Assembly: GCA_914767715.1 (NCBI GenBank)
Contig: OU612068.1
Coordinates: 28,646,001-28,710,000, forward strand
Direction of reading: 5' to 3'
DNA from: Membranipora membranacea
Taxonomy: Eukaryota > Bryozoa > Gymnolaemata > Cheilostomatida > Membraniporidae
DNA: 64,000 nt
The notes under the pieces are model-generated. The model saw only the letters and a program-made list of their open reading frames with translations. It was not told the DNA's origin and made no database searches. Of the stretch, positions 1,063 through 53,100 are shown in pieces (position 1 is the first letter of the stretch; the number at the start of each line of letters is the position of its first letter). Made by a program: the position numbers and the translations under genes.

Positions 1063-1168
1063 CGCTGTCTCTGGGAGCAGGAGATCCTGGCTTGACGTCA
1101 AACTCTTTCCATTTGCCTTCACACAGCGCTTCTATTTGAGTAGGATGGGTCAACAACACGTGTCTAAC
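1063..1168 (-). CDS. ZFHX3/4-like: Probable ZFHX exon 8
   Basis: The acceptor ttgtacttgtag and donor G|GTGAGT flank 35 codons plus one base. It starts [20 protein letters not shown] and joins exon 7 in phase 0, which would close the CNVC finger with spacing C-x2-C-x11-H-x4-H, one residue short of the usual arm. The following residues are not ones I recognise from the family, so this may be a divergent exon or an alternative exon of the same gene. Confidence 0.55.
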
Positions 1169-4100
1169 CTACAAGTACAAATACCATATGTCATGGACAC
1201 CCGCGCTCGGCAAATCTGGATCATTGTCAATTCCGGCAGTGAAAAGCTACTAGTGCTCTAGTGCTACAAATTAGGTATGAACAAGGAATAAGACAATAAA
1301 ATAGAAAAATGAAGGATGAAGTTTGTACCAGAACAAATGCTGCAGATAGTTGATACCATTGTGTTCAATATGTCAGCACTAATTGTATATCATCTGGAAG
1401 CTGTAGATTTTGGCAGCAATGGAGAGAATCCCCAAACTTTGCCCCCATCCTTTTGTTTATACCAGCTCGCATTTTTTCTTATAATTTTACTGGTCGAAAG
1501 TTTGTTATGAAATGGCTTAGCAAGGGTGCAATGTGATTGTTACCATGTGTATTTTGTTTGTGTTTGTCTCGGAGCAGACTCCGCAACAGTAGTGATATTT
1601 GGTGGAAAGCTCGTCTGGTCTTCTCAGATGTCTGAACAGCGAGGAACCAATCGTATGACTGGCTGGCATTGAGTGGATCCTCATCTATAGAATAATGAAT
1701 TTCATGTCTTAGGTCTGTAAGAACTAAGGTCTGTAAGAACTATTACCAATATATAATTGCGCAGGTAGGCGATCATACAACAGAATTTTAATTTGAGAGT
1801 TGTCTAAAATGTATCACATATGTGGACTTTTCCTCTTAAATGTAGGAAAACTTAACAGTGATATACATCAAGGCCTTGGCAAAAGAAGGCTGGCCTTTAA
1901 ATCTCAGGAATGATTTATACGAGTTAGCATACATCATTTATGCTTCATACCTTTTGAAGGCTGTTGGATTGGTACGAGCAGACATTACACACGATGTGAG
2001 TGAGGTTAGGCATGTTGAGGTATTTCATCCTCCATTCGTTCTCGCCGCCTCCCTCTCTGATGTGATTAACCAATTGAACTCTCTGCATGTGTCTGTCAGT
2101 CTAAAACACACAGTCAAATTATGATGTAAATCCCAACACAACAGGTTTCTACGACACGTTGATTGGCCGTGTTGACCTAGTTAATTTTTTGCTTCTGATA
2201 TCCGACTTAGGTTCCATAAACACGCTATACACGGTGATGAAAGATCCTTCATATCGAGGAGCATAGACTTCTGAAAAGAACTAGTGGAAAAAATTATGTT
2301 GTTGTTGCAATATATAATCTTATTTTGTCATAATTATGACTTTGCAAAAAAATACCCATATTCAAATTAGAGATATTTACTGATATTCAACTGGCAGCGT
2401 CAGAGAGATTCTCTACTCGTCATGAGTCACAAGTATCTATGTAATCAAAGTCTGTGTAAACAATTATCTGCATTATTATCAGCGGGTGGATACACCCGCC
2501 CCCTTAGGTGCCTGGCATGTGGGCGACAAAGGCTAAGGAAAGGGAGTCGCCGCTGATAAATCCCGCTAATGACTACGTGAAATCTAATGAGTCGATTACC
2601 ATGGAATCATTACTGTAATATTATCATAGCATTTAAGTTTTTACTGCTAAGATCTGTGTTTGTCCTAAAGCTTTGCAGATGTGTACATAAGATATATGCA
2701 TGTATAAAACCGTATGCGCCCTATTATCTCACAATTGTCCAAGTACAGTTCTCAAATGGCTAAAAAACTTATCCTCCTAATTTTATGAAGATAATTAGCA
2801 AACAGAGGTGGGATAACACTTGACATGGCGTTGTATGAATCAAACAGGACAATCATACTGCATAGATTGTACTGACAAGTCAGATTATTAACAGATTTGA
2901 GCCGACTGGATGCTAGCTTTCAGTTGCTGGAGCTGACTTTCTATTGAGTTTTACTAATTTAGTTATAATAAAGTTAGCCTTTTCTCGTGTTAAAGCATCC
3001 AATAGTTCCTATTTTTAATATGAGGCAAAATGGATTTTTCTCAGAGTTTTCCTCATTAGATTGCAGTTAGTGTAATTAAAAATCAGCTGGCCTAATTATC
3101 TAACCATTGTCCATGTAACCAGTGACAATGGACTGTAAATAACATCACTGATAATTCTGTCAATTAAAAGTTCTTTATCTTAATGACAGCACCATTTTGA
3201 AATCTCCAGGGCTTAATAATGTATAGAGCATCTTACATCAGACCATAGCCTTAGAGATACCTGATGTTAGGGACACCTTGTCCCTGTCCATCAAAAGGAT
3301 AAAACACAGGGGAAATTAATTGACCCGCTGACCCAATCAGAATTTCTAATTAAACTAACTAGACTTTCACATCCAATTTTAATTTTACAAGACAGCGATA
3401 ATAACGTTCAATTGCCAATTTTTGCTAACCTCTTTATGGTCATCTGGTAAAGATATTTTGGGTGTGAATTCTCTAGCAGCCATTGATCGACTGCTTCCCA
3501 CTAGATTCCCTATTCAGTTACAAGTTCTTACGCATCATTACAAGCTCATTTATTTTTTTCTTGTAACCCATAGGCTACTATTTATTTCCATTTTCATAAA
3601 AAAACACCTCCCAACACTCCCATGATTGTGAATACCAACCTTGCAGTGTAGCTGGAAGTTAGCCTTGAGAGGAGTTTTGTATTCACACAGGTTACAGAGG
3701 TAGTGATTCTCAGGAGTTATGGTCACATGCTCGGCGTTGTTTGTAGCGCTCCTGTCTATAGTCAAGTGTGCTTCAAGTTCACTCATATCATCTGTGGTGA
3801 AGTTGTTACAGATAGCGCAGCCATAGATATCTCGTGAGCTCTTCGACTTGTAAGGTAAGATTTCATCACCGATATGCATTCGGTCCCCATCACCCTGGGA
3901 GCAATGAGTGACAATAATAACTAGTCAGGTTTTATATAAGGCTGGAAATTTCTGATTGCTGCCAGATCGTTTGGCAGGCTATCTAGCTGGAGCTCAATAT
4001 GAGTCATGTGAGGAGAAGCATGCGTTAAAGTATAGCCTTGATGAATAACGGATTATGTCTGGCAGCCAATTATGAGTTCGACTTATCGGACTGTTTGTTG

Positions 4101-7100
4101 AGACAAAACAGCTCATATTTACTTTGGTTCATGACAAGTGATACATGTGCTTGTAGTTAACATCTACTGTAGAATATAATGGGAGTGACCTCATACCTGT
4201 TGCTGGGACTGAACCTGCATCTGACCGACGACCCCGAGTGGGTCAAAAGGAAACATAGTACCCAGCTGTAACTGCTGGAGCGCTGCTGCGTCCGCCTGAC
4301 TGGGAGTCATCCCAACCGAGCTCAACGTCATATTCATGTTGCGCTGCATACTCCTCACATTCTGTTGAAATTGATTAATAACAACAGTATAATCCGAAAA
4401 ATATAAGAAGGCAAACAGGATAGAGCATGAAAAATCGGGATTTCACTGAAAGTGTGAAATAAATTATAACAGCTCAGGTGAAAATGGACACCCATCTACC
4501 TATGATTGTAAATTACCATATAACTTAGACAAATTTCACACTCCTTGTATGTTTTCTGTACCGGTACCAACGACGCTCAAATTTCATCATCAGTTTCTTT
4601 TCCATCATTAAAAATTGACTCGCTTAATGAAATAGCTGATGTAGGTTTCTCACATTTTGTACCTTCCGGTGACAGTTACCCACCTGTTGTAATATGAGCA
4701 TGTTGTGAGTGTGTTTCTCACTGGTCATGTGTATTCTTAGATTCCTGGCTATGGTCGTCTCATAATTGCACACATCACATCTCCATTTCTGACTTTTCGG
4801 GGCAGAGACAGCGATTTGTTGACGTGACGTTATGGTAGAGACAGCAGTGGGATTAGAGCTGTTTGTTGGTACAGCAGGAGGCGTGGAGCTGCTGGATCCA
4901 GCAGTGGAGGGCCGATCCCCGACAGCACCAGATGTTACTGTCTTGTCATTTTGGTTCTCAATATTGCCCTGTTAATGACACATACAAAAACTTCATATCA
5001 AGTTGGAAGCTATTAATTGTGAAAGACTCATTATATAATTATTTAGTCACCATTATGCTCTCCCGTTTCCACCTACATTTGAGCCGGCCGCAGTGAATCA
5101 AGGAGAACATTGAGCAGACAATTAGAATCCTGACTATAACACTTTGTTACTCAATATTCAGTCTTGCTATGTGATAATTTGGTGTCTCCTTTCTCTTCCT
5201 CTTGTAATATTGAACAAGTATCACAAAGATTGCTTCGAGATTTAAATATCAAAAGAAAGGCAAGCCACATATTTTCTTGTACTTAATTTGGCACAGTTCT
5301 TGAATGGAGTAGTTTCAAAAAGATCCTGCCAGGTTATTTTTTGCACATAGCTGATGCATTGTGTCCTACGCTTTTTCATTTAATCAGGTACAGAGATAAT
5401 TATGACATGACCCCCCTACCAGCATTCTAATTATTGCAGCACCTAAGTTAAACAAGCTCTAATTTTAGAAATGAGCAAAATCTAAATCAAAATGGGTGTT
5501 GAGAGAAGAATTTTTTTGTGACAAAATGTCGCAAAAAGATCCGATAACATCCAGGCTAATCAAAAAAATATTATACCCTTCACATCCTGATTGGGATGGG
5601 TAATTATGATGGGATTGTGCTCAGAACACAGTAATTTTGATGGTCTCATGATCAGAACGGGTAATTTCCACCAATACAGCAAACATTGGGCATGCATAGT
5701 CTACTGGGCAGGTGTCGGGAAGGTACACTAGTGTCACATCATAACCCTTATCATTGTTTTAAAGTGAACAGAACCATTATTATACCTGCTTAGAGGGCTG
5801 GGTGAGAGATGACGATGTTGAGGCAGCAGTTTGTTGAAGCTCCTGGATATTGTTGATATGTTTGTCTGACTGCATATGAATGCTCAGGTTACCTTTGGTT
5901 GTGGTGGAATAGTTGCAAACTTCGCATCTGAAACAAAATTCATCATGCTATGTACGTGTGTACTTTTTATGTAATTCACAAGTTATGGTCATAAACAACG
6001 AAACAGTTAAAAATGTGAAATATGACGTAAAAAGTAAAAAAAGTCTGAGGCATTGAAATATTTTGACAGCATGCTCTAAATGTTTTTCTGGAACTCCTCT
6101 TCCTGTGCTACACAAGCTCCATTGATTTATCCGCTTGGGGATCAGCAATGTCCACCTCACTTTAAAAACACCATTTACGTCAGGGGCCTGGTAAGGTACA
6201 CATCTAGCTGCGACGCAACAAAATATAATGAAAACAAAGAGAATTTCATTGCTGTGAGTTTGGCCAGCATGTTATGTCATAGCAGTACCGCTTTCTGGAA
6301 ATATTCCAAAAAAAATGCTCTAAATGTTTTTTCTGGAACTCCTTTTCCTGTGCTGCACAAGCTCCATTGATTTATCCGCTTGGGGATCAGCAATGTCCAC
6401 CTCACTTTAAAAAACCATTTACGTCATGAGCCTGGTAAGGTACACATCTAGCTGCGACGCAACAAAATATAATGAAAACAAAAAGAATTTCATTGCTGTG
6501 AGTTTGGCCAGCATGTTATGTCATAGCAGTACCGCTTTCTGGAAATATTCCAAAAACCGTAGTCAGGTGATATTAAACGCAAGTCCCATATCCAGAGAAA
6601 CAATTTTATGGAAGAAAAGCTGCTCGTTGTTTCAGTATGGAAAAATCCAAGTGAGAAATAGCTTACCTGTATGGCTTGTAACCGCACATATAGCTCTCCC
6701 CTCTGGCTAGTCTGGGATGAGACTGTTTGGTTACACAGTATATACACGTCTGATCTGTGTCTGGGTGCTTCTCCTTCATATGGATTTCCAAAGTCTCCTG
6801 GTATTTGTAGTGCCAGTTACACTTGGGACACTTCAATGTTTTACAAGAGTTCCGAGAATGCATCATTGTCATATGGCCTGCATAATAAGGAAGTAAAACT
6901 GAAAATATTGGGATAGATTTAAGCATTTGATGAAACAAAACTGCTGTTAAATACTCAATGTATCAGGTAATGTTTAGAAGTTAATTTTGCATGATTAGCT
7001 AACACAGTGAATTATTCGTATAGAGAAATACTTTTCCTAGAGCCAAAAGATTTTAAAACTTTAAAGCACTTACCTCCAAGTGATCTAGCAGAGCTTAGTA

Positions 7101-27962: not shown

Positions 27963-28582
27963 TACACATCAATATTTTTTGCAAAAGAAATTTTCAATGT
28001 TGCCCGACGGGCGGACATTGAAGTGGAAGTGAATGTGCATGATTTACTTGTTCACTGCACACCTGTCACCTCTGGTCAGTATGCTTGCAAGAAGGGCGTT
28101 GATGATATAAAAGCACTGAACTCAATCCTGGAACAGCAGCTCACTCATAGCCTTATAAACAGTAATCACCCAATTTAGGAATACTTACTTGATTTTATGA
28201 ACTCCTCAACCCTCGTATAATTTAAGTTTATAGATGTCTGTGTGATTTGCTATGTGAAATGCTATGTGATTGGCTGTCCCTAGTAGAGGGTGCCATCTTT
28301 ACTGTATGACCACGTGACAGTCACCTGACTAAAACCGTTACAACAAGATGCATTGGACTTGGTTTCCTGTCTGCAGGTTCAAAAGATGTACTCTTACTGA
28401 TCACATTTCAGTCACAAGAAACCAAATTACCCTTTGTTAAAGCACTCAGAGCAGACATCATTGGTGAAAATGGAAGCTTGAGGATTAAACACCTTTCTCT
28501 GTCTCAGAAGAGCTCAACAATCAACATGAATAACAGTCAACACCACTCAAAAGTCACTGCTGAACTCATGGTCACTGAGTAG
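27963..28582 (+). CDS. Two candidate exons of an unidentified gene
   Basis: A frame open from 27963 reads FNVARRADIEVEVNV...CTPVTSGQYACKKGVD and reaches a possible donor (ACA|GTAATC) at 28161. It would join in phase 1 to a second frame starting after a strong acceptor (tttcctgtctgcag) at 28377. That frame reads KDVLLLITFQSQETKLPFVK and ends at TAG 28580-28582. Both look coding in composition and their phases agree. I do not recognise the family, and the acceptor of the first exon is unclear. An additional candidate exon lies at about 27445-27530 (CCTVALENETGVMHTG), with ctacag and CAG|GTATAA borders. Confidence 0.4.
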
Positions 28583-29287
28583 TATCATTGATTTGAATGA
28601 ACGTATGTGAATTTCAAGACAATCAAACAACAAGGCATAGATAGAGATGGATATATATATTCAAACTTCAGCTGCTACAACTCAATTGGTATGTATTTGA
28701 ATGTAAGTATTTCACTCTACTACTTACTAACATTGCTCTGCAAAAATGATAAATCATAAATATAAAAAAAAGACTGGGCAACCAATTGTGACTGTTAGTT
28801 AGTCCCACTAAATTTGATTGAAATGGTCTCATTAATATTATGAATGAAAATAATAAATAACTAACATGAAGATGAAGCCAAAACATTTCAATCAAAATCA
28901 ACCCAGTCCAATATAAAATAACTATATAACAACAAAATAAACTTAAACAAACAACAACAAAAACTTAACAAACAACATAGTAGCGTGAGTTGCTATTATT
29001 GTTTTCTTCTTAAATCAACAGTAACAATATAAATTTAACAAACTAGTAGAGTAACTGCGCTCAGCAAAAATGATAATTATCTATCGAAGTTAATATATTA
29101 TGCAGGGATTGAGATCAGGCTATCATTTTGATCTTTACAAAATATTGTAAAATGACTGGCGCTTAGAAGGTTGGTCTATGATAAATTGTAGTGCTATGAT
29201 GTTAGTGACTATAGTATGTTAGGTCAACTCAGTGGTATGATATGCAGGTAAGTTTGTACTTAATCTGATAGACTAGCTGTTCAATAT
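28583..29287. other. Intergenic, AT-rich, 3' flank of the THAP9-like gene
   Basis: No gene seen. A-rich and low-complexity stretches (28910-28975) lie here. No P-element-like terminal inverted repeat was recognised by eye next to the transposase-like gene. Confidence 0.35.
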
Positions 29288-29744
29288 TCACTCACCGCTC
29301 ACGAGTGTGAGCTTGTTTCGTTTAACTCTGTTCTTGGTAGGATGGTGGGCTTGATTGATTCGCTTGCCAGAGTAGAACTGCCTAAGATTATGAAATTTTG
29401 TGAGAACTTTTCGTATCAAGCTAAAGTAATGATTACCTGCCCCGTGTTGTGTGTCATTAGCATGCTGTACGAATGCATCTGGTGGGCCACCTACTGCTTT
29501 TAGCACCTCTAAATTCAGCCTCTCCTGTGTCAGTTTCTCATTATACACTCTAGTGACCCTCTCTGCAGCAGCTATAAGTTTGACTGTAAATTTTGATGGG
29601 TACACTAAACCTCCCTTGTCTTTTTGGATGAGTAGTCGGTAGCATGTTGTGTTGGTGTCCTGAATCGCATCTATCTCATTAACTGTACATTCGAGCAGCT
29701 GCTGGCATACTTCACACTTGACCTCTGCCTTTCTGACTATATAT
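29288..29744 (-). CDS. THAP9-like: THAP9-like last exon (C-terminal block)
   Basis: The acceptor ctatttcag is followed by YIVRKAEVKCEVCQQLLECT, matching the 'YI.G.V.K......C..C...L' block near the end of THAP9 proteins. It ends FHNLRQFYSGKRIN...VKRNKLTLVSGE with TGA at 29290-29288. An alternative donor-like GTGAGC lies just before the stop, so a further short exon is possible. Confidence 0.9.
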
Positions 29745-32700
29745 CTGAAATAGAGTATCAAGTGCTTACTGAAATTACCCTATATGTATGTCTATAGCAC
29801 TGCCGCTTTAGTTATGCCTCTACACATTAGGGTACATTGTCAACTTACTCATTCATATCACAATGCATCACCCAAGTACAAAATATGACAAAAGTGCGTT
29901 CATCTGAGAGCATATCTAACTTGTTGATATCAAAAAATATTATTTATTTAAAAAAGTCAACATACCCTGACATATGTCCAACTACTGAAAGCTCCCATCT
30001 TTCCAACATATTATCTTGAGGTTCATCAGGCCTAGCTATTGTCGCCAATGCCGAGAGGGAGCTTGGCATCTCGAGCATATCCTCCTCGCAGTCATCCAAT
30101 ATAAGGCAGTTGCCATTGCTACTTGGTAATTCAGTGCAATGCACTGACATCTTTCTCATAATTTTCCTGAAGTGGAATGCACTTGGATTGTTGTTCCAGC
30201 CACCTTAAATTTGGAAAACAGTGGGCCATTACACACCTAATAATAAGAATTTTAATATGTCAGCTTGATTCTTTGTTAATTCTTTTTTTGTTCCTTTTTA
30301 TTAGGAGCATCATCAGATCAGCTCAGCTTCATCTGACCACTTTGGAGTATCATATTCTGAGAACGAGTTTATAGCCATGAGATGGTATGCATGCCTAATT
30401 TTAAGTTTCCTACCTGCTTTCCTCACTGCGTTAAAAAAAAGCTCCAGGTGATCTTGGGATAGACGATATGTCATTATGTAATTCTGCTCGGCCAGCAGCT
30501 CTGGTGCCAAGTTTTTCAGGCATGCTATCCCGGAAAGAAAGCCCAGGAAGCATGTTTTCCTACAACATTCCAATTTAAAATTTCCATCGTTTGTACTCAA
30601 CCTGATCCTTCTATCGAGACAGAGTTCATTACCCAAAAAACTACATGACAAAACTTTTACTCCATTTTCTTATTCTCTACTGCCTAATTTGTAGTATCAG
30701 TATCAGACACACTTTATCGCAATATTACTTATGCAGGTGCTCCTAGTTCATAACATGCACTCTTTATTATACCTTACAGGGTTTACAGACTGAAGGACTC
30801 TTACCTTTTGGTAGTGAGGAGAAGAGCGCCATCATTTCTCCTCAGCTGCTTGATGTAATCTTCCATGTAGCTCAGGTAATCCTCGGTTTGTCTCCAGTTC
30901 ATGATCTTAATCGGCTCCTTTGAGAACTTGCCATGTGGGGATCGTGTGTTTAGTATATCAAAGAGTTTGTCAAACTTCTGCAAGTGAATTTATAGAAAAT
31001 GAGCCATGGTCCCAAATCAGCAATTCAGACATTTTCTCTCTGCCTATATAAAAAGGATTCTGCCGAGCTAATTTCCATACGGTTAAATAAAGTGAATGGG
31101 TATAAAAAAAAACTGAGACAATACACACCTTCAGAAATTTGACTGTACCAGATACATCTTTAAATTCGGGATATGCGTCTGACATTGTTTGCAATGTTGA
31201 CAGGGCATCTGCTGTACTTTGGCTGAACACTTGGACAGCCAGCCGGACCTTCATAATGTTTCCCCTGAAGTCTATATGTTGCTTGGTTAACTTGTTTCCG
31301 AGATGTAATCTACCTTTTTCCTATTTGTAAAAACATAATTAGAATGAGGTGAATGTCAAGAAATTTTAAAAGAATCATTCAAAATTATGTTCTTCTTTCG
31401 AACCAGTGTGACTAAGGCCTTGTTATGTGGAGATATCTTGGTCTATACTAAATTTGAAAATCACAGCGGTGATAGCAGACTAGATTTATTGAAAACCAGT
31501 GATCACCAATTTTGTTGTAGTCTTTACCTGTAGTTTGACCAGGTTTTTCACGTCACACCATCTGGCTGTTCCATGCGGCCCCATCACTTCTTCCCACTCT
31601 CCTAGCAGATTTCTAAGAACCTTCATCATGTGCACAATGTCTAGCATGCAGTGTATAGGCTTGTCGTTGTGGATGAATGAATACTGTCCTTTATCAAAAT
31701 CACAGCCAAGCTGTTTCAGTGTCGCAACATTTGTCCTGTGTCCATCGGCCACTAGCACTCGCACTCGTATTCCTTTAACTGATAGGCTCTCTATCGAATG
31801 CATAATAAGCGTCCCCTGTGTTTCTCCTTTAAAATATAAAAGGGATATTATGGCAACATTACTAAATGGCAGCGCACTGTCATTTTAATTTGAACTTCCT
31901 AGGTCTCCGGTTATAACTGCAAAATTGGATACCATGTATCTATAGCCAACTTTTCAATATGTTGCTTATTCATTCCTACCTGTAATGCCTGCTGTGAAGT
32001 AAAAGGCCACAGGAGCTTTCCATTTCTTTCTGAGGCCAACAGCCATGACAACCAGGGCGTTCTTGGCTATTTTAGTCCGATCTTGCTCCAGTACACCGCC
32101 CAAGTCCACATAGCCAACATGTTTCTGCTCGGATGGTATCCAGTTAACGGCTTGTTTGATCGACATTTCATCAAACATCAACACACAGTCCTTGTAGTTA
32201 TAGGGATCTTTTTGTACATAATCTCCTAGCGAGTTGATCACATGTGTGCAAATCCCGGGATGGTCGTCTACACCTTGCATCCACCTTAAATTCAAATTCA
32301 GTCATTTACTAAACATGGTTGATTTGCTATATAGTGTTTTAGGGTACTTACTGCTACAAGTATATTAGCGCCAGTCCTCTACCATGAACATATAAATATT
32401 GTATATTATGGTAAAACTGATTAACTCAAATCAAAATAACAGTATTGTAAAATGTTGATTTATCTTCTCAATTTCAATGCTGGAAAAGGATCAATTGACT
32501 ATAGTTTTAACTTACATAGTTAGTGTCCGTGGAGCTGGTAGCTTATTTTTGAAAACAGTCCTCAAGAATTCATATGACTTTGGCCCGTATAGATGTAATG
32601 TCAGGGCAAATCTCTTTTGTAAGTCGCTGTAGCTTTTACTATCTTTAAACAGCTCCATTGGCATGTCTATAAAAATTAAAAATAGCGGCATTGTAGATTG

Positions 32701-35700
32701 CTGCCTAAACCATGAAATCTAGATTGATCTTATAAATGGTCAAGCTTTTAAACTTCTCACTAATGAGTATAGAGCAACACAGAGCTACTCAAATAGATGA
32801 AGCAAAGAAGATAATATTTCAGTTTTTTTCTCCCTCATCAACCTTAAAATTTCACATGTAGGACGCCTCGATATCCAGCAAAGTACCATTTTAATATTTG
32901 TAATTCTAGTTGGGGTTACCCTGAAATTTGCTCATTTGTTGTCTGAGCTCATCCGACATCTTGTCGCTCTTTTCCAGCGTGTCCTTCATAAGCTTTTTTT
33001 GTTTTTTTAGTATTTTATGCTTCCTCTCTGTTTGATAACCTGCTATTGACTTCTGTGAGAGCTGGCGTTTTAGGAATCTGATGTGATCTTCTGGGGTCAC
33101 TCGCAATGCATATGCATGCTCCTTCCTATCACCAATTGGAATCTGTAAATTACAAGGATGGCCGGTCTGAGTATTTAACATCAGATAATAAAAGTGTATG
33201 GGTTTGAATTTTGATAATCATCTTATCTGTGTGACGGTTGTGACGTAACACTGGGATTGCCCGCTTATTCTTACTGTCGATAGACTGCCGTCACCTTGGA
33301 AGTTTGAGAGGCCATAACTTCCTCAATGGATTCTAAAGCAGGAATTCGCTCACATGATAGAATAAAATATGGAGAATAAGATGTGCTACATAATAGCAAC
33401 CTCAAACTAAGTCTTTAACTAGACACGCTTTGTCCCTACCTGGAAGAGCTGGTCCCTTTCTGGTAGAGCTGGTCCCTTTGGGGAGCTATCCTCACTCACA
33501 GAATCGCTAACCAGAAAGTCTCTAGTACTAGAACATGTTTCCTGTAGAAACAAAGAAATAGGGATGCATGGTGGTGTTTGTTATTCGAAATTGTTATTCA
33601 AATATCTATTTGCGATCAAAGCTATTATTTGTATGGTTGTGTAAATAATATTATATTAATCCGTAACTATCACATTTGGATGATCTATTGGCTTTTTTTT
33701 TTTTATAGATTCCATCGCCTTGGCCTACCTCGTGATCAAAGTCTTCATTCTGAAGTGGGATTTTGTACTTTGGAAAAACCACCACAGCTGATGTACTTGG
33801 CTCAGAAATCCCAGACTTATCCTACAAAAAATGTAAATATCTTATCTTATAATATGATATCATTGAATTGTACTATTCTGATATATACTGAAATGGAATT
33901 CAATGTATAATATATATAGCCCGAGAGACTACAATGGTAGTGGACAATACGGCGGACGATGTTACAGTTCAAACTTATGTCTGTACCGCAACCTCCATTC
34001 TATTTAACGAATGATGAATCGCCTCACCTGATTTATATTGTTAGCTAGTGCCAGAGAAAGGCGATCACAGGCTGTCTCCGGTGTCCTTGGTGTATGTACT
34101 GTATGTAGAGTAGAAGCTACAGGCTTGCTCGCTGACTGAATGATACTAAATGGGAAGTTGCCCATAGATGGAGCATCTGTAGACTTATCCTAAAACAATG
34201 TAAATTTTTGTTAATAATGATATATAGCCCTTGAGGAACTACAAACAATTTAGACAGTTTGATGGTTGATGTCGAGGCTAAACGTTGCCTGTACCACAAT
34301 TTCCATTTTATTTAAAGAAAAATGAATCGCCTCACCTGATTTAAATTGTTAGCTAGTGCCAAAGAGAGGCGATCACAGGCTGTCTCTGGTGTCCTTGGGG
34401 TATCAACTGTTCGGACGTTACTATCTAGACTGCTGCTCTCTGTTTCAGATGTGAAGAAGGGATGAGAGCTGGACTTATCCTAAAACGAGGTACACACAGA
34501 CTTGAGTTCAGTGGATGTATATGATTGGTGATTGAAAGCTTTTTATTATCTAAGCGTAAGTATTCTTGCCATTATATTGCTCCCTAAGACATTGTTGTTG
34601 CTAGGAAGAGCTCCAACCTCACCTCTCACCCGTCTTACTCCCTGCCAACAGAGTAACTCATCCTCCCTGCTGCCAAGAATTAGTTTCTCCCAAGAGTTAT
34701 CCGCCTTTGAAATATAAGCAGATAACTCCTTATGCGGAGTTTTAGGTTAGTTGCACCAGGGAGTATCCCAAACTCCCTGGTTGCACCAGCCTTTTACTTG
34801 CCAGTATTAGAAGATCCTGGCTATTTTTTTATAGATTGCATTGCCTTGGCCTACCTCGTGATCAAAGTCTTCATTCTGAAGTGGGATTTTGTACTTTGGA
34901 AAAACCGCCACAGCTGATGTACTTGGCTCAGAAATCCCAGACTTATCCTACAGAAAATGTAAATATCTTATCTTGTAATTTGATATATATAGCCCGAGAG
35001 ACTACGATGATAATGGACAATACGGCGGATGATAAAACAGTTCAAACTTATGTCTGTACCGCAACCTCCATTCTATTTAAAGAATGATGAATCGCCTCAC
35101 CTGATTTATATTGTTAGCTAGTGCCAAAGAGAGGCGATCACAAGCTGTCTCTGGTGTCCTTGGGGTATCAACTGTATGTAGAGTAGAAGCTATAGGCTTG
35201 CTCGCTGACTGAATGATACTAAATGGGAAGCTGCCCATAGATGGAGCATCTGTAGACTTATCCTAAAACAATGTAAATTTTTGTTAATAATGATATATAT
35301 AGCCCTAGAGGCACTACAAACAATTTAGACAGTTTGATGGTTGATGTCGAGGCTGAACATTGCCTGTACCACAATTTCCATTTTATTTAAAGAAAGATGA
35401 ATCGCCTCACCTGGTTTAAATTGTTAGCTAGTGCCAAAGAGAGGCGATCACAGGCTGTCTCTGGTGTCCTTGGGGTATCAACTGTATGTAGAGTAGAAGC
35501 TATAGGCTTGCTCGCTGACTGAATGATACTAAATGGGAAGCTGCCCATAGATGGAGCATCTGTAGACTTATCCTAAAACAATGTAAATTTTTGTTAATAA
35601 TGATATATATAGCCCTAGAGGCACTACAAACAATTTAGACAGTTTGATGGTTGATGTCGAGGCTGAACGTTGCCTGTACCACAATTTCCATTTTATATAA

Positions 35701-37885
35701 AGAAAGATGAATCGCCTCACCTGGTTTAAATTGTTAGCTAGTGCCAAAGAGAGGCGATCACAGGCTGTCTCTGGTGTCCTTGGGGTATCAACTGTATGTA
35801 GAGTAGAAGCTATAGGCTTGCTCGCTGACTGAATGATACTAAATGGGAAGTTGCCCATAGATGGAGCATCTGTAGACTTATCCTAAAACAATGTAAATTT
35901 TTGTTAATAATGATATATATAGCCCTAGAGGCACTACAAACAATTTAGACAGTTTGATGGTTGATGTCGAGGCTGAACGTTGCCTGTACCACAATTTCCA
36001 TTTTATTTAAAGAAAAATGAATCGCCTCACCTGGTTTAAATTGTTAGCTAGTGCCAAAGAGAGGCGATCACAGGCTGTCTCTGGTGTCCTTGGGGTATCA
36101 ACTGTATGTAGAGTAGAAGCTATAGGCTTGCTCGCTGACTGAATGATACTAAATGGGAAGTTGCCCATAGATGGAGCATCTGTAGACTTATCCTAAAACA
36201 ATGTAAATTTTTGTTAATAATGATATATATAGCCCTTGAGGCACTACAAACAATTTAGACAGTTTGATGGTTGATGTCGAGGCTAAACGTTGCCTGTACC
36301 ACAATTTCCATTTTATTTAAAGAAAAATGAATCGCCTCACCTGATTTAAATTGTTAGCTAGTGCCAAAGAGAGGCGATCACAGGCTGTCTCTGAGTTCCT
36401 TGGGGTATCAACTGTTCGAACGTTACTATCTAGACTGCTGCTCTCTGTTTCAGATGTGAAGAAGGGATGAGAGCTGGACTTATCCTAAAACGAGGTACAC
36501 ACAGACTTAGTTCAGTGGATGTATATGATTGGCGATTGAAAGCTTTTTATTATCTAAGCGTAAGTATTCTTGCCATTATATTGCTCCCTAAAGTATGGTT
36601 GTTGCTAGGAAGAGCTCCAACCTCACCTCTCACCTATCTTGCTCACTGCCAATAATTAGTTTCTCCCAAAAGTTACCCACCTTTGACATATAAGCAGATA
36701 ATTACTCCTTATGCGGAGCTTAAGGTTAGATGCACCAGCGTTTTACTTGCCAGTAATAAATTTTAACATGAAGATCCTGAATGGCTTAGTGTACTGATTT
36801 TCTATTTTAGTTACTCAAGCATGAATTGAGGATATTTACCTGGATGCAGACTAGTCCACTATCTCTGCTTGAAATAAGTCTTACTTTTTTCATTGGCTGC
36901 TCAAAGGTATCGCCTGATGGGTCATAACTGGTAATCTGAAAACAAATCCATAAATGACTCCTAATGCCCTTGCTTAACCACCTGTTATCTATTAATTGGT
37001 ATCAACTAGGACCATATTGTTAGTTGGACAGCCTCAATGAAAGAAGTCTTCTGAGTATAATACATCTTTTGATATTAATATTGAGTTAATGAAGAACAAG
37101 GTAGCCATTAAATAAAACTAAATCAATTGATCTTGCTCACCTCTTTTTTCACTTGCAACTGTTGCAAGTAGCAATGGTCATGCTCTGCAACATGAGAAAC
37201 CTGGAAAAATTCAAGAAGGCGAATCAAACTTTCTGACTACCGATCATTCCACTGTCAATATGATATGGACTGGTATGATGGGCAGAGATGAGAACTTATA
37301 CCAGCTTATTTGGTCATAATTCACAGAAACAGAAACCGTCAAATAATTTGAAATATAAGTATTGTACTCACAGGACAAGCTGTGTGTTTCAGTGACCGGT
37401 GTTTGGGATCATTTGTATTAGCATAGCTACCAGGTGGAAAATGTCGTCCACAAATATACTTTTCATTTGTGTTTGTTATTTCTATTTTCAGCACGTCCAT
37501 CCACCATAAACGACTCTTTGTGACCCTGTAGCAAGAACACAAGTACCTTGTTACTGATGCAAAAGAAAGCTTGAGCAGGAGATAGGAGAGTCCTCCCTAG
37601 GCGAAGACAAATTTTTCGTCAATCCATCATTACTTATGAGCATAGTAGCTGTGTTCAAGCTTTTGTTTCTTTTACAATGTACATCAAGAAGGACTTTTGA
37701 ACACAGTCTGTAAGCAATATGATAGATGAATTTGGATGGGATCCTCACTTTTTTTGTTAATGTCCTTGGCAAAATTATGCTTATCTTGTGCATATCTGGG
37801 CAGTGAAATTGAGACAATATTATACTTACTTATGAAAAGGCACAGTCCGATTGTCATAGACCTGACAGTAACAACACTTTTTCAT
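29288..37885 (-). CDS. THAP9-like: THAP/P-element transposase-like protein (THAP9-like)
   Basis: Apparently intact gene of about 23 exons, all with GT-AG borders and continuous frame; 1311 codons if every exon is used, 883 without the cassette array (human THAP9 is about 900 aa). Order: a compact THAP zinc finger (37885-37372); two linker exons; nine repeated linker exons (36484-33729); a Ser/Asp linker (33541-33440); a Lys-rich predicted coiled coil (33142-32920); then the P-element transposase core. The core shows FDEMS (first acidic residue), VADGHRTN (second), a lineage region with MLDIVHMMKVLRNLLGE, and LSQDHLELFF carrying the third acidic residue. After that come WNNNPSAFHFRKIM and a YIVRKAEVKCEVCQQ C-terminal block. 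Such proteins bind DNA and, in P elements and human THAP9, cut and rejoin it. The many introns and the lack of seen terminal repeats suggest a host gene and not a mobile copy, but this is inference. Confidence 0.93.
29966..30203 (-). CDS. THAP9-like: THAP9-like exon 22
   Basis: Starts GGWNNNPSAFHFRKIMRKM, continuing the family motif that follows QDHLELFF. An acidic Ser/Asp-rich spacer (LILDDCEEDMLEMPSSLSAL) and GHMSG follow. Acceptor atttaag; donor GG|GTATGT, phase 2. Confidence 0.9.
30414..30559 (-). CDS. THAP9-like: THAP9-like exon 21 (third catalytic residue)
   Basis: After the acceptor atgttgtag it reads KTCFLGFLSGIACLKNLAPE and later YRLSQDHLELFFNAVRKAG. The Glu in QDHLELFF is the residue that aligns with the third catalytic acid. 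Donor G|GTAGGA, phase 1. A longer open frame runs into both introns and should not be taken as coding. Confidence 0.93.
30805..30977 (-). CDS. THAP9-like: THAP9-like exon 20
   Basis: 58 codons, from KFDKLFDILNTRSPHGKFSK to the phase-2 donor AG|GTAAGA. The DxLN(s/t)R block is conserved in P-element-like transposases just before the second half of the catalytic core. Borders are canonical (acttgcag). Confidence 0.9.
31129..31320 (-). CDS. THAP9-like: THAP9-like exon 19 (insertion-domain region)
   Basis: 64 codons, phase 0 on both sides. EKGRLHLGNKLTKQHIDFRG and MKVRLAVQVFSQSTADAL follow the P-element pattern 'L..KLT..H..F....MKV.LA.Q..S..VA.AL'. This region corresponds to the GTP-binding/insertion part in Drosophila P transposase; GTP binding here is not shown. 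Confidence 0.92.
31528..31826 (-). CDS. THAP9-like: THAP9-like exon 18 (second catalytic Asp)
   Basis: Encodes RVRVLVADGHRTNVATLKQL, with the second catalytic Asp. It continues through FIHNDKPIHCMLDIVHMMKV and LRNLLGEWEE, the 'D..H..K..RN' signature of the family. The usual (S/T)DG(A/T)xxN is DGHRTN here, a mild variation. Acceptor tttaaag; donor CAG|GTAAAG, phase 0. Confidence 0.93.
31980..32284 (-). CDS. THAP9-like: THAP9-like exon 17 (first catalytic Asp)
   Basis: Begins WMQGVDDHPGI and contains CVLMFDEMSIKQAVNW, whose Asp aligns by motif with the first catalytic acidic residue of P-element transposase. VGYVDLGG and a beta-strand block (ALVVMAVGL...APVAFYFTAGIT) follow, as expected for an RNase H-like fold. 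Acceptor atttaag; donor G|GTAGGA, phase 1. Confidence 0.92.
32516..32666 (-). CDS. THAP9-like: THAP9-like exon 16 (N-terminal edge of transposase core)
   Basis: Encodes MPMELFKDSKSYSDLQKRFA and then YGPKSYEFLRTVFKNKLPAP with RTLT. The last part is the P-element/THAP9 'R...LP.P.TL..W' entry to the catalytic domain, and its Trp is the first residue of the next exon. Borders are ttttatag and AT|GTAAGT, phase 2. Confidence 0.9.
32920..33142 (-). CDS. THAP9-like: THAP9-like exon 15 (coiled coil)
   Basis: The acceptor gtaatttacag opens IPIGDRKEHAYAL, then HIRFLKRQLSQKS and a Lys/Glu-rich helical stretch ending MSDELRQQMSKFQ. This matches the leucine-zipper-like multimerisation segment found after the THAP domain in P-element transposases. 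The donor is G|GTAACC, phase 1. Confidence 0.85.
33440..33541 (-). CDS. THAP9-like: THAP9-like exon 14 (acidic Ser linker)
   Basis: 34 codons, phase 0 on both sides (tttctacag; CAG|GTAGGG). It reads ETCSSTRDFLVSDSVSEDSS and then PALPERDQLFQ. It is a Ser/Asp-rich linker in the same style as the cassettes, but single-copy. Confidence 0.78.
33729..36484 (-). repeat. THAP9-like: Tandem array of nine in-frame exon cassettes
   Basis: Three exon types, all phase 0, all beginning Asp-Lys-Ser (GATAAGTC) after a TAG acceptor and ending at CAG or GAG before GTGAGG or GTAGGC. Type B (144 bp): 36484-36341 and 34479-34336. Type A (162 bp): 36192-36031, 35882-35721, 35572-35411, 35262-35101 and 34189-34028. 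Type C (93 bp): 34947-34855 and 33821-33729. The transcript order is B-A-A-A-A-C-B-A-C. The four consecutive A units repeat every 310 bp with near-identical introns. A and B share their last ~24 residues (TVDTPR...ETACDRLSLALANNLNQ). None contains a stop. Each adds 31 to 54 Ser/Thr/Pro/Asp-rich residues, so any subset keeps frame. Confidence 0.93.
36840..37200 (-). CDS. THAP9-like: THAP9-like exons 3 and 4 (linker)
   Basis: Exon 3 is 37200-37141 (20 codons, Gln/His-rich, VSHVAEHDHCYLQ). Exon 4 is 36935-36840 (32 codons, ITSYDPSGDTFEQPMKK). Both are phase 0 on both sides with canonical borders (tttttccag, GAG|GTGAGC; tgttttcag, CAG|GTAAAT). They link the THAP domain to the cassette array. No known domain. 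Confidence 0.8.
37372..37525 (-). CDS. THAP9-like: THAP9-like exon 2 (rest of THAP finger)
   Basis: The acceptor ttgctacag completes Lys, then VTKSRLWWMDVLKI with the conserved Trp. ICGRHFPPGSY gives the second C-x2-H zinc pair. KHRSLKHTACP matches the position of the AVPTIF box, with only the Pro kept clearly. The donor is CCT|GTGAGT, phase 0. Confidence 0.9.
37830..37885 (-). CDS. THAP9-like: THAP9-like exon 1 (start of THAP finger)
   Basis: ATG at 37885 encodes MKKCCYCQVYDNRTVPFHK, ending in phase 2 at the donor AA|GTAAGTA. It supplies the first zinc ligands (C-x2-C type) and the conserved FH of the THAP fold. The leader before the FH motif is shorter than usual, which makes a compact domain. 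Confidence 0.85.
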
Positions 37886-38932
37886 GTCGCTTCACTGGCA
37901 AAACCAGTACACAACCTTAAAACAGCCTGTTGTCGGTGAGCAAACCTACACATGTTCCAATTGATAGACATAAATTAAATGATAAATAAATGATATGTTT
38001 TCTCAGACTTTGTGATGTTGATACTTATTCATAGGTAAGAGGAGATGCTTCTTGTGACATACGTCTTCATGAACATATTTCGGACATGCCAGACAATAAC
38101 TTGATATTGCCAGACATCTGTGCATCAGTTTAATTTCTCACCTAATCATACTTCAAGTTCATAAAAAATTTGTCTTGATTTCCATTTGGTGAAACACAGA
38201 GCCAAATAAACCCTAGTGAACTAAAATGAGCCCTTAGAACCATGCCAAATAGTCTATGAGCATTGAGCTAACAATGAAATAGAAGTTGTTCCCCCATGAT
38301 GATGCCTCCATTCAACAGTAAGACTGGAGTTATCATTCCCCTTATGTTTTACCAGTTTAAATATGGCGGTTCTTCGTCTGCTACAATTCTTCCGGATATA
38401 GTGCAGTCTCTAATAAAATATTCATTGATTTATGGATTTGTTTCATAGTGTTTTATTGTTTTATATTATCAAAACAAGCATAAATAAAAGTTGTTATGTT
38501 CGAAATAACAACCAAATAAAAGAAAAAGACACTAGTTTATACAAATTGTTGTTCATAGAAAATTGATTTTTTTAGTAATCAAACATTGCGCAAACTCCAA
38601 AAAGCTACTAGGGACTGAGCTCGATGTCAATTGAAAATTGTGAGAATGTCTATTGGAAAATACAGCTCCCTGATTGGAGAATGGTGAGTTGAAAATGCTA
38701 TTCTAAGAATAGTTCAATTCAATGTATAAAAGTAACAATAGTTCATGGGTGACGATTCTAAAATTTCAGCTCTTTCCGATGGAAAATGAAGCATGGATAT
38801 TGTAAACAAAGGATGACACTTGCATCACTGGCTTAATTCATTTCTCCTTATTTTAATCTACAAATTTTGGTAAGCGTTCACATCATTTTGCATGTTCAAA
38901 CTGTTACAATGTATTACTTTTTCTCCTTTTAG
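37886..38932. other. Upstream flank of the THAP9-like gene
   Basis: Apart from the candidate promoter near 38.37 kb, no gene or repeat was recognised. AT-rich sequence without long open frames. Confidence 0.35.
38358..38396 (-). promoter_or_regulatory. Candidate promoter of the THAP9-like gene
   Basis: On the minus strand, an ETS-type CCGGAAG is followed about 30 bases later by a YY1-like CCGCCATATT, a pair common at TATA-less animal promoters. It lies about 475 bases upstream of the start codon in otherwise featureless DNA. The motif evidence is suggestive only. Confidence 0.3.
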
Positions 38933-48138: not shown

Positions 48139-50153
48139 GGTTTCAATTAGGATGCAGCTAAATACAATTTAGCGGACATTTAGCTGAGCTTTAACCAGAT
48201 TTTAGCAGCCACTTATCCATGTTGCAATAAGCCCCAGCTATAACTTGGCAAGCAGATTGATATGTATCGTGGCGAAATCTCACTTTATCACTGAGTTTAG
48301 GTGTCTGTGATTTTTTATGCTGATTGGGCACTGCAGATAGTTTGATGAGTATTTATTGATATCATTTAATCAATTAGCATATTTGACATATATAATATAA
48401 TGCTGGCTGAGTGATAGCTGCCTGAAACAGAAAAAACAGCCATGTAATATGTGGCTAAACATCAGCTAAATGTATGCGAAATTTATGCCCCAATTGGTGG
48501 GTGGCTTAGCTTTAGCTGACTTTTAGCCGCAAAAGCAAGGCTGAAAGCCAGCCAAATCTGTAATTGAAGCCACCCCCTGATGCCCTGCATGCCTGGGTTC
48601 TCTGATCAGCCGGTGTCCTTCATGCTGTGTTCCCTGTGGTGGGCGTTAACATTTTACTGGTGATTCCCGCAGCAGCTGGTGCTTCCGCTATTGGATATTC
48701 CTCTTCTGCACTGGTTGTGAGATACTTGTCCTAGATTCCATTTGGTTTCCCATTTGAGGAACTAAACTGGAGCTGTGCAGCTGGATCTGGGTTCAATTAG
48801 GATGCAGCTAAATGTCGGCTAAATTGTATTTAGCAGACATTTAGCTGAGCTAAAGTATTTATATTATTTAATCAATTAGCATATATAACAAAATAAAATG
48901 TTGATGAGTGAAAGCTGCCTGAAACAGAACAGCCAATATGAATAGCTAAACATCAGCTCAGTCTATGCTAAATTTATGCTTAGTGAAACCCAAACTAGGG
49001 AATGGCTGTGCTTTTAGCTGACTTTTAGCAGCAAATGCACGGCTAAAAGCCAGCTAAATCTGTAATTGAACCACCCCTCCCCCTGGTGTCCTGCATGCAA
49101 AGGTACTCCGAACATGCAAGGACAGCCCATTTGCAGAGGTGACTTTTTTCGTTTTCCTTGAAATTATGATGCCACAGGTTGAAGTGTTGTGGTTCACAAT
49201 CAGACGAGGAGCAGCAATTGAGGTCGTAGTAATTGGGTCATAGTAACTGGGTCTTTGTCTCCTGCTACTGGCTTTTAAAGATTAAACTAGGTGAATAAAA
49301 TAAATCAGCACTCGCGCTGCATTGTTGTGACGCCACTTGTGTGCGCTGAACAAACAACGCTGTGTTGTGAGATGTTTTCCACGCCTGCTGTCTGCTATAG
49401 CCCATCTAAGGGAGTGGGTTCTCTCTCAGCAGCTGGTATTCTGCATGCTCGTACTCTCTCTGAGCAGCTGGGGCAGGTTTCAATTAGGAATTAGCAAAGA
49501 TTTAGCTGAGTTTTAGCCAGATTTGGTAGCCACTTATCAATGTTCCAATTAGCCCCTGCTGTAACTCAGCCAAGTAAATCGACATTCATTGTGGAGAAAT
49601 CTCACACTATCACTGAACACAAAGGAGTTTTATGTCTATTTTTCACTGATTGATTACACTTTGATGGGTCGTTATTTATAATGTTACTCAATTAGCATGT
49701 ATTACATATGAGTGAATGATAGCTAAACAGCTAAAAAAATATGGCTAAACATCAGCTAAGTCTCTGCCAAGTTTATGCTAATCGAAACCCGAATTAGTGA
49801 GTGGCTGTGGCTTTAGCTAACTTTCAGCATCGAATGCACGGCTAAAAGTCAGCTAAATCTGTGATTGAACCACCCACCTCCCCCCTGAAATGAGTGGCTG
49901 TGCTTTTAGCTGACTTTTAGCAGCGGATGCACAGCTAAAAGTCAGCTAAATCTGTAATTGAACCACTCACAACCCCTGGAATGAGTGGCTGTGCTTTTAG
50001 CTGACTTTTTAGCAACAGATGCACTGCTAAAAGTCAGCTCAATCTGTGATCAAACCACCAACCTCCGCCCTGCAATGAGTGGCTGTGCTTTTAGCTGACT
50101 TCTAGCAGCGGATTCACCGCTGAAAGCCAGCTAAATCTGTAATCGAACCACCC
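48139..50153. repeat. MITE-like family with self-complementary AGCTAAA motifs
   Basis: Three related elements (about 48139-48572, 48789-49076 and 49476-49875) start ggtttcaattag or ggttcaattag and end taattgaa(g)cc, so GGTTCAATTA forms the terminal inverted repeat. Each ends in a hairpin (ttagctgacttttagc ... gctaaaagtcagctaaa). After the third element a ~93-bp hairpin unit is repeated in tandem to 50153. The spacers also repeat (tcctgcatgc, then gttctctga), indicating larger tandem duplication units of 650-900 bp. Confidence 0.88.
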
Positions 50154-53100
50154 CCCTTGCTGTCCTGCATGCTTAGGTTCTCTGAGTAGTGGGTTTCCTA
50201 CATGCCTGTGTTCTCTGTAGTGGGCGCGGTGCGTCTTCTGCTTGCTTCAACTTCCCCTTGCTTAACTCAAATACCAGAGCCTCCCAACTTCCTGGCAGAC
50301 TGCCTGACAGGCAAGGACAGCTCATCTGCTGCGGCTTTTAAGAACTAAACTAGGTGAATTAAATAAATCAACACCTATACTGCATTGTTGTGAAGCCAGT
50401 TGGAATTCTAAGAATCTCATAAAGCAGATGCATTAGAAAGTGTACACTTTTCTCCAATCCCTAGACCGGTGGCAACAGGTCTGAGAATAAATTTACTTTA
50501 CAAATAAATTTACTCGATGCAAACGTTAACTTTTTTTTTAACTTGAAATTGCCATTGCGATGTTTATTTAATAGGTCAAAGAGTTGACACCAAAATGGGT
50601 ATCAGACAACTCATTTCTACAATTATGATCCTCTTATAAAATTAATATTAATATGGTCAGGGCAGTTAACTCTGTCATCATCTGCAATGATGAAAAACCA
50701 GCAAAACCAAACCAGGCGTTTAATTTGGAAGTAAGGTCTGCAGTAATGGTTCAGCACATTTAAGCTATCTATGGTATCCCCGCAACAGCTTACAACTAAA
50801 ATTAAAACCGACACACATTGGGTCATTTTGAAATCTCAGGTAGACTTACATTATTTCTAAGCTACGAAAGCAAGGAGAACAAAATATAACTCAAAAAAAG
50901 CAATTGGAAACTTCACTTGGACTGCAGGTGACAACCAGGACATTTCATTGGCATTAACATTACACTTACACATTACACTTTAATACATGCAGTAGAATAT
51001 CCTCTCGTCGAAACACTATTTTTAGGCCTGTTGCTTGCCGAACACAAAAACGTGCCAAATCTTTTTTCCCATTTTTTATGTCTTATCTGAACAAGTGATA
51101 ATTTTGCCTAGTAGACTTTTTTTTATTCTTTACACTGTTAACATTCAATTATCATACAATGATACCGAATGTAAAATAAACTGAAACTGAAATCACCACA
51201 ACCCCTAGAACATACTGGCTAATCTGTAGAATTTGTAAATTGGAAGTGAGCCTTTTTTATTCTTTTATTTAGTTATCAACCATTAATCAGACAAGTACTT
51301 TAATTAAGAAGGAGATCATTACTAATATTTTAGGAAAGATTTATCATTGGCTGAGTTCTAGTGAGCTTAAAAGCTGGAAATACTGAGCTTAGAACAAAGT
51401 TATCTCTAAATGACTTTTGGTTATCATTGGGTTTGCATGTTGCGCTGTATGACTAAAAGTGTAAAAGTAATTATTTAGATTTTTTGCCTACTGTAAAATA
51501 TGATTTACCTAGCCTGCCTTGACAAGCTTGCAAGACAGGCTATGATTTAAGGTACTTACTAAAATTCTTACACTCACTATAAGTACATAACTTTTTCAGT
51601 TCAGTACGTATAATATTTGATTGAAAGGTATATCAACTTAATTGAAAACTATTGACTATACGCATCTTGATAGGAATATCGACGAACTATACCATTGCTC
51701 GCCATGTAAAGATGAATAAAAAAAGACTGCTAAGCCCTAATACGTACCAATATCAATAAAATCCTTTCAAGATTACCTTATTTTATTTCTCACTAACAAG
51801 GCATGTTAACAGCACCCCACAATGCATGATAAAAAATCTGAAGATTCCAGGAGGTATAGCTCACGAAGTCAATTGCTTCAAACCCTGCACCCTGCTCGAG
51901 CGTTGAGGTGTACTCCTTAATTCAGGAGTTATGTCATTTATGTGTACGGGGACACAACTACTGTTAATTCTAAGAAGTTTTGTCTAACTGTTGAATATTG
52001 CAAAGCTATTGATAGACTGAGAGTAGGATGAATGAAGGATAATATGGTTCTTCTATAAGTGATTACTGATTATGACAGTATAGTGTGTTGGATTTATGTG
52101 ATCCTATATTGTCATTACTTTATCAGCTCCATTTTGTCTCTAGGCCTACGACTATGAGCTGTTAACAAATTCAGTCAGTATTGTCACAATTTATGATCGC
52201 TTGTATCTGCTCATTGGGTCCGAGACATAAGCATTTTTTAAAGCTCAATGAATTCACACAGCTCCATATGCCCCATCTCAAAAGTCACTCTCCATACACC
52301 AGACCATAGTCAATAGTTGTCGGAATGGTTATGTACGTTCATTCTTTGGTCAAAAATAATTTAAGACAATCTTGTTGATAGCAAAATCAGGTTCCAGGTG
52401 AAATTTGATTCTGGCAGGAACACTGCTCTACATGCAGAGAGACAGAATGTTTGTGTTACATCCCTTTCACTTAGTCAGATGTCTCAACAACAAAAATAAA
52501 ATCTATAAAACAATTATGAAAACTGTCAAGCTTGCTTGACTCATGATACCCTCACCCAACAGTGTAATTAGTATACGGTGAGATTGTGATTGTTGGCGCC
52601 TCAAGAGATTTGGTGCATCCAGAATTTCAGAGCTGAATTTTGTTGAAGCGTCCAAGAATTGTACACAGTGTCTAAAGTCTATGATGATTCACCTGAAACA
52701 GAAAATAAAAGCCACCTTTATTTATGAAGAATTGCATCAGCCAAGTACAGTGTAAGTCACTTAATTCAGACTCCAGAGGGCCAAAGAATTATGAATTGTT
52801 CTAATTACAAAAGTGCCAGCTCGCAGGAATTTCCAACAGGTGGGGCTCAGTTCAGGCATTCAACAAAAAGAAACATTTTATTTGCTGTATTATGGCTCTG
52901 CAAGTCGGTAATGGAAATAAAACTGAATATGGAGTTACTTTCTTACTTGGTCAGAGAAGACAACTTCAAATTTCAATTACACCTTCGAATTATCAGGGTG
53001 TAAAAACCATTGGCTGAGCTGGGACCACAATCAGGTGTTTGAATTGACTGGGATTTCATATTTACAGGCCTGGATTTAACCAATTTATACTGTATTAGCA

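Follow-up and report, generated by a model that had tools for sequence, protein, structure and literature searches.

Taken singly, elements of the P superfamily, arrays of tandem exons and transposase genes with an in-frame repeat that varies in number are all known already. An example of the last is the TPE repeat of hobo, a unit of nine bases within one exon. Copies of hobo (hAT) with three repeats are reported to transpose more than copies with five (PMC4807377, citing Souames 2003), and this in-frame repeat of variable number within a transposase gene recalls the arrangement described here in the bryozoan Membranipora membranacea, with the difference that hobo belongs to another superfamily and carries short Thr-Pro-Glu repeats, whereas the Membranipora element repeats whole exon-intron units.

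Within the P superfamily, the Drosophila P element shares with the Membranipora element a THAP domain, an HTH, an RNase H domain split by a GTP-binding insertion, and 8-bp duplications (6p5a/6pe2; PMC7776569). It is described as 2.9 kb long with four open reading frames (PMC7776569), against 10.6 kb and 24 predicted exons here, and differs from the Membranipora element, in which a repeated and copy-variable exon array lies between THAP and HTH. Zebrafish THAP9/Pdre2 has terminal inverted repeats of 13 bp, subterminal ones of 12 bp and 8-bp duplications, as well as about 100 extra disordered residues between its THAP and dimerisation domains, a linker that its authors propose to help the protein engage both internal and terminal repeats (PMC10983969). 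This linker occupies the same place as the cassette stretch of Membranipora; since the words 'exon' and 'intron' are absent from the main text of that paper, repeated or variable exons appear not to be reported there for zebrafish THAP9. Copies of Galileo, also of the P superfamily, differ in their tandem repeats, and slippage and template switching during gap repair have been invoked for its defective copies (PMC4168063); those repeats sit in the terminal inverted repeats, whereas those of Membranipora sit in predicted coding exons. Finally, the tandem exon duplications and mutually exclusive exons described in animals (PMC9013439, PMC6071210) likewise consist of tandem homologous exons, but these belong to host genes, whereas in Membranipora the exons are predicted and differ in number from one copy of a mobile element to another.

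In the open-licence literature, judged by title and the start of the abstract, we found no paper describing a transposase whose exon arrays vary from copy to copy, and searching the literature for bryozoan P elements yielded nothing either. The string 'transpos' is absent from the main text of one bryozoan genome paper (PMC10290214), as are 'P element' and 'DNA transposon' from that of another (PMC13326412). The nearest cases found are the short in-frame repeat of hobo and the unrepeated linker of zebrafish THAP9. Here, we describe a P-type transposon of M. membranacea in which a copy-variable row of in-frame predicted exons probably forms an adjustable linker from the DNA-binding part of the transposase to its cutting part.

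Results

The element and its transposase gene

The window, i.e. the whole stretch of 64,000 nucleotides that was analysed, is C4:28646001-28710000 on chromosome 4 of M. membranacea tzMemMemb1.1. It contains a P-superfamily DNA transposon of 10,611 bp with a transposase gene on the minus strand (Table 1). A search with part of the transposase core retrieved near-identical sequence on other chromosomes, and further copies lie near C2:26.29 Mb (C2) and at C7:15.40 Mb (C7p), C7:19.04 Mb (C7q), C10:5.42 Mb (C10), C3:11.86 Mb (C3a), C3:12.58 Mb (C3b), and C7:15.99 Mb (C7m), the last being an internally deleted derivative of 0.58 kb that has kept both ends. Each of the four insertions that keep both ends is flanked by an 8-bp target-site duplication of its own (window TATAAAAG, C2 TATACAAG, C7p TCACAGAC, and C7m TTTGCTAC), and all four carry the exact 11-bp inverted repeat GTCCCTAGTAG at the same distances, 162 bp from the left end and 109 bp from the right; none of 100 shuffles of the window gave such a pair. 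The left GTCCCTAGTAG repeat is present in C10, C3a, and C3b too, and an exact 11-bp subterminal repeat was looked for and not found in C7q, where the right end is kept. As candidate terminal inverted repeats, the ends themselves (CACTGAACTCAAT and CATTGAATTGAAC) match at just nine of their first 13 bases. The Drosophila P element likewise has subterminal inverted repeats, comparable to GTCCCTAGTAG in size and position. The near-identity of copies inserted at differing sites suggests that the element has moved recently.

The predicted gene of the window copy has 24 exons and 1289 codons with no internal stop. When the full protein was scanned, PF12017, PF21787, PF21788, and PF21789 all scored above their Pfam cut-offs, covering the HTH, both halves of RNase H, and the GTP-binding insertion. 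The THAP match (PF05485) is weak, being obtained with a 90-residue N-terminal piece at 26.0 bits against a cut-off of 23.9, and no THAP match at E up to 0.001 appeared in the full-protein scan. The protein also matches the solved P element transposase 6p5a in sequence (E = 2.8e-25). The charged stretch encoded by E6, which leads into the P-type HTH, may represent a coiled coil. In the alignment with the solved transposase, three acidic residues are paired, i.e. the D in FDEM, the D in VADG/VSDL, and the E in QDHLELFF/QDIVEHFF, which we take to be the catalytic residues in Drosophila P transposase. Four distant homologues passed among 7340 candidate proteins, with 28-34% identity; a THAP domain is listed for two of them, part of one can be made out by eye in a third, and inspection by eye showed no repeated linker in any of the four.

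The preliminary description of this DNA, made from the sequence of the window, had proposed a transposase-derived, THAP9-like gene. Its THAP and P-type core are indeed present, and together with the 1289-codon open frame they would suit a domesticated gene serving a host function. However, it had overlooked that the gene belongs to a multicopy mobile element: the transposon ends, the 8-bp duplications, the subterminal repeats, and the near-identical copies on other chromosomes, including the internally deleted one, indicate that the gene is part of a P-superfamily transposon and not domesticated. A host THAP9-like gene was accordingly rejected, and we consider the chance that this one serves a host function as practically negligible.

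Table 1. Features of the transposon and of its predicted transposase gene (positions in the window).
Feature	Position	Strand	Basis
Target-site duplication, left, TATAAAAG	28106..28113	.	identical 8 bp flanking either side
DNA transposon, P superfamily, 10,611 bp	28114..38724	-	termini common to other copies; copies with both ends each have own 8-bp duplication
Subterminal inverted repeat, left, GTCCCTAGTAG, 162 bp from left end	28276..28286	+	exact inverted partner at 38605-38615
Exon E15, stop codon	29299..29381	-	gene model
Exon E14	29437..29744	-	gene model
Exon E13	29966..30203	-	gene model
Exon E12	30414..30559	-	gene model
Exon E11	30805..30977	-	gene model
Exon E10	31129..31320	-	gene model
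Exon E9	31528..31826	-	gene model
Exon E8	31980..32284	-	gene model
Exon E7	32516..32666	-	gene model
Exon E6, rich in charged residues, leads into P-type HTH	32920..33142	-	gene model; PF12017 at protein 640-710, across E6 and E7
Exon E5, phase 0	33440..33541	-	gene model
Cassette B1, 31 codons, phase 0	33729..33821	-	gene model
Cassette A1, 54 codons, phase 0	34028..34189	-	gene model
Cassette C1, 48 codons, phase 0	34336..34479	-	gene model
Cassette B2	34855..34947	-	gene model
Cassette A2	35101..35262	-	gene model
Cassette A3	35411..35572	-	gene model
Cassette A4	35721..35882	-	gene model
Cassette A5	36031..36192	-	gene model
Cassette C2	36341..36484	-	gene model
Exon E4, phase 0	36840..36935	-	gene model
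Exon E3	37141..37200	-	gene model
Exon E2, main THAP part	37372..37525	-	gene model; PF05485, 26.0 bits, cut-off 23.9
Exon E1, predicted start codon	37830..37885	-	gene model
Subterminal inverted repeat, right, 109 bp from right end	38605..38615	-	exact partner of 28276..28286
Target-site duplication, right, TATAAAAG	38725..38732	.	identical 8 bp flanking either side

The cassette array

Between E4 and E5, the minus strand carries nine cassettes (33729-36484), which follow each other in the predicted transcript as C2, A5, A4, A3, A2, B2, C1, A1, and B1. As previously proposed, all nine are in phase 0, free of stops, a multiple of three in length (A 162 nt, C 144 nt, B 93 nt), and bordered by AG and GT; the proposed 310-bp period was recovered by Tandem Repeats Finder (35054-36415, 4.4 copies, 98% matches), and the block of B, A, and C is indeed duplicated. 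On the other hand, the order given at that time, B-A-A-A-A-C-B-A-C, agrees with neither strand of the gene model, which reads B-A-C-B-A-A-A-A-C on the plus strand and C-A-A-A-A-B-C-A-B in the direction of the predicted (minus-strand) transcript, and the kinship of A and C, whose last 25 codons agree but for a few changes, had been missed.

Sequences like the element's own ends occur within the array. At 34502-34513, just upstream of the C1 acceptor, the left terminal 12-mer (CACTGAACTCAA) recurs exactly in inverted orientation, and this 12-mer or a near copy of it precedes each of the eight C exons examined; exon C may thus have arrived with a nested insertion, of which the 12-mer would be a remnant. 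Moreover, the intron between A1 and B1 contains at 33861-33905 a 45-bp insert, both ends of which are like the right terminus of the element (CATTGAATT...CAATTCAATG), with ATATTATA/ATATCATA beside it, and which has the appearance of a minute derivative of the element whose insertion duplicated 8 bp. It is found in the second blocks of the window, C2, and C7p copies, as well as in C3a and C3b, and is missing from the first blocks, C7q, and C10. Elsewhere, the window contains a minisatellite of about 93 bp (49798-50157, 3.9 copies) and a tandem duplication of 244 bp (6071-6556, 97% matches).

Copies elsewhere in the genome

The genome searched comprises 339,339,785 bases in 18 contigs; the published figures for the assembly are 339,374,674 bp and 21 scaffolds (PMC10290214), so that a few small pieces lie outside the part searched. 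Copy numbers are lower bounds, the scan with the core protein having scored 150 of 213 candidates.

The arrays differ widely among copies. The window copy (C-AAAA-B-C-A-B, 1289 codons) and C2 (C-AAA-B-C-A-B, 1235 codons) are open throughout. C7p has C-AA-B-C-AAA-B, with E2 not found and E14 partly missing, and C10 has a lone C-A-B, with E1, E2, and E15 not found, the right end missing, and B separated from E5 by about 3.7 kb of other DNA. C7q (C7:19034001-19044000) has C-AA-B and is cut off after B, with the right end kept; since its THAP part and C-A-A-B remain, it could encode a repressor-like THAP-plus-linker protein. C3a and C3b are A-B remnants whose 5' part is missing. The four copies with predicted exons on both sides of the array thus contain nine (window), nine (C7p), eight (C2), and three (C10) cassettes. 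The cassettes of the window recur in six other copies, and all 37 cassettes of the seven copies are tandem homologous exons of one phase, open, a multiple of three in length, and bordered by AG and GT, which is more than chance would give. A genome search with the 310-bp unit, in which all 11 candidates were scored, gave matches confined to these copies, apart from a weak one of 94 bp at 80% (C2:19278030-19278123).

The window copy and C2 differ at 8 of 1968 bases (0.4%) in nine core introns and by three changes in the compared core codons, and their arrays differ by exactly one A unit. Between copies, core pN/pS ranges from 0.14 to 1.47 (15 pairs, leaving out E5 of C7p and any exon that a copy has in disrupted form or at a different length), values up to 1.47 suggesting that several copies evolve like dead ones.

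Tandem repeats are prone to miscounting, and the array could have been an artefact of the assembly. However, the latter was built from 66x HiFi reads, according to its published description (PMC10290214), and arrays vary among copies in both order and linked base changes; since other copies carry different arrays, we consider such an artefact very improbable.

Probable growth of the array by exchange

Exons C and A end in 75 nt that are homologous and in the same phase, and the introns that follow are homologous too, with two types, the distance between the homologous C and A ends being 310 bp. An exchange between a C end and an A end would therefore add or remove a whole 310-bp exon-intron unit while leaving the frame and the splice sites intact. 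If such unequal exchange takes place inside the exon, the type of intron is expected to be tied to the exon that comes next, and the tie is perfect among the 27 C and A cassettes: all 17 that are followed by exon A have the C-type intron, and all ten that are followed by exon B have the A-type. The internal A cassettes of the window consist of an A beginning joined to a C-type end and a C-type intron. Their breakpoint lies at or upstream of codon 31, and differs from those of the last A of the first block of the window and of the A that is repeated in the second C7p block, which fall between codons 46 and 52. Such intron types and breakpoints are what unequal exchange, or template slippage, between exon ends would leave. 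An origin as a plain minisatellite was rejected, as the units coincide with exons and the points of exchange lie inside them.

The copies compared fit the duplication of the block and the amplification of A that the preliminary description had proposed. We infer that the ancestral module was C-A-B. The lone C-A-B of C10 fits this state, and a tree with a distant outgroup copy places C10 first (IQ-TREE bootstrap 73%, FastTree support 0.19); loss of a block in C10 is a possible alternative. The second tree data set is unrooted, so it is uninformative on C10 as the first branch.

Coding constraint and composition

In line with the earlier proposal of a Ser/Thr linker between THAP and the transposase core, Ser or Thr make up 25% of cassette residues and 12% of core residues, and the cassettes contain 13 TP pairs. 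The cassettes had also been put forward for a dN/dS comparison, which revealed constraint on A (n = 19, pN/pS 0.26, codon bootstrap 0.09-0.82), whereas the bootstrap intervals for B (n = 10, 0.40) and C (n = 8, 0.67) both extend above 1. The majority C-type and A-type ends (eight sequences each) differ by five synonymous and two nonsynonymous changes, over 19.3 and 55.7 sites, respectively (Fisher p = 0.0098). The first 48 intron bases have changed more than nonsynonymous sites have, without reaching significance (p = 0.077), and exon and intron change overall do not differ (p = 0.40).

In the full protein, the repeated stretch matches the Pfam domain HU-CCDC81 at 28.4 bits against a cut-off of 26.1, with no single stretch passing alone. 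As an A-B-C piece scanned by itself gave no match at E up to 1, we read this match as a sum over the repeats; HU-CCDC81 is a folded domain and, if genuine, would speak against a plain disordered linker.

Other P families in the same genome

A second P family contains seven small predicted exons of whole codons between THAP and core (L029 gene strand 1101-4023; equivalents L027/L028, L030/L031). Four copies were searched for them: in the second-family copies C1b and C7m every one of the seven is open and has AG/GT borders, C8 has one with a stop and another with changed end residues, and none were found in C6. Two pairs of these exons, x1 with x3 and b1 with b2, are duplicates (0 of 2000 shuffles as good for each). 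Among the 28 pairs tested between the two families, just two fell below 0.05, namely cassette B with b2 (1 of 2000 shuffles as good) and E5 with x1 (0.037); homology of A or C with second-family exons was dropped, there being no such match among these pairs. The duplicates of the second family and the likeness of B and b2 are modest evidence that exon duplication in the linker is older than the present array.

Family 3 (one locus, L044) was covered through frames of at least 120 aa. Family 4 (one locus, L045) runs from THAP into the core in a single frame of 553 codons without cassettes. Genome-wide, 150 of 283 candidates were scored for a THAP domain and all 150 matched, so that there are at least 150 matches; many of them share the same score, which suggests that several families with THAP exist in many copies.

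Discussion

The reading best supported by our analysis, and the most likely, is that the array encodes a linker of variable length between THAP and core, which amounts to 428 cassette residues in the window copy and 374 in C2, the two copies open throughout. Such a linker would let the THAP domain reach subterminal sites while the core holds the ends of the element, the 11-bp GTCCCTAGTAG repeats being candidate THAP sites, and the number of cassettes would then tune the efficiency of transposition, with exon skipping possibly adding variation; the reported difference between three-repeat and five-repeat hobo copies is a precedent for such an effect of number. In-frame gain or loss of 310-bp units would arise through exchange between the homologous C and A ends, likely either by unequal crossing-over or when the gap that the element leaves on excising itself is repaired; that excision-gap repair is the occasion may be suggested by analogy with Galileo.

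As the preliminary description had in part proposed, tandem homologous exons could also serve combinatorial or mutually exclusive splicing, whereby each copy would produce many transposase isoforms, some of them repressors. As the nine cassettes and both neighbouring junctions are all in phase 0, any subset of cassettes would keep the frame. In four of the five A cassettes of the window, retention of the following intron gives a stop within eight codons (after 50 codons for A4), which would leave a THAP-plus-linker protein, and C7q has just that part; the Drosophila P element is in fact described as making a truncated repressor (PMC7776569). However, the A and C donors of the window are all alike (CAG|gtgagg), giving no ground for choice among them, and a docking site shared among the array introns was not seen in the 25 longest of 56 inverted repeats. 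Isoform production as the role of the array thus appears rather doubtful to us; public RNA-seq data are available for M. membranacea (ERR6464929).

The main rival to a tuned linker is that the array is a neutral by-product: exon ends recombine, units turn over, and a disordered linker tolerates any length. The units are near-identical and recent, copies that are broken elsewhere are among those with very different arrays, and the Ser/Thr-rich composition suggests disorder. On the other side, the A cassettes show a synonymous excess, and a B-like exon seems to be kept in the second P family of this genome, which itself has duplicated linker exons. We therefore regard neutrality as a possibility to be taken seriously, if not the outcome that we would expect, and retain the variable linker as the preferred reading.

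In a bolder version, which we advance as unlikely and speculative, the transposon's mobility itself would act as a dial: excision and gap repair would keep changing the number of in-frame exons, and the resulting variants in linker length (or in isoforms, by skipping) would come under selection. If so, activity could be adjusted, or host control escaped, without point mutation, and, given the duplicated linker exons of the second P family, this would be a long-standing trait of the clade.

The gain or loss of an exon-intron unit in frame, through exchange in homologous exon ends, can be followed between copies that are only 0.4% apart in their core introns. The same genome also offers a natural series of one transposase gene, in which the linker has three cassettes in one copy, eight in another and nine in two more; two copies in the series are open throughout, and it thereby becomes testable whether the distance from the DNA-binding domain to the core sets the activity of the transposase.
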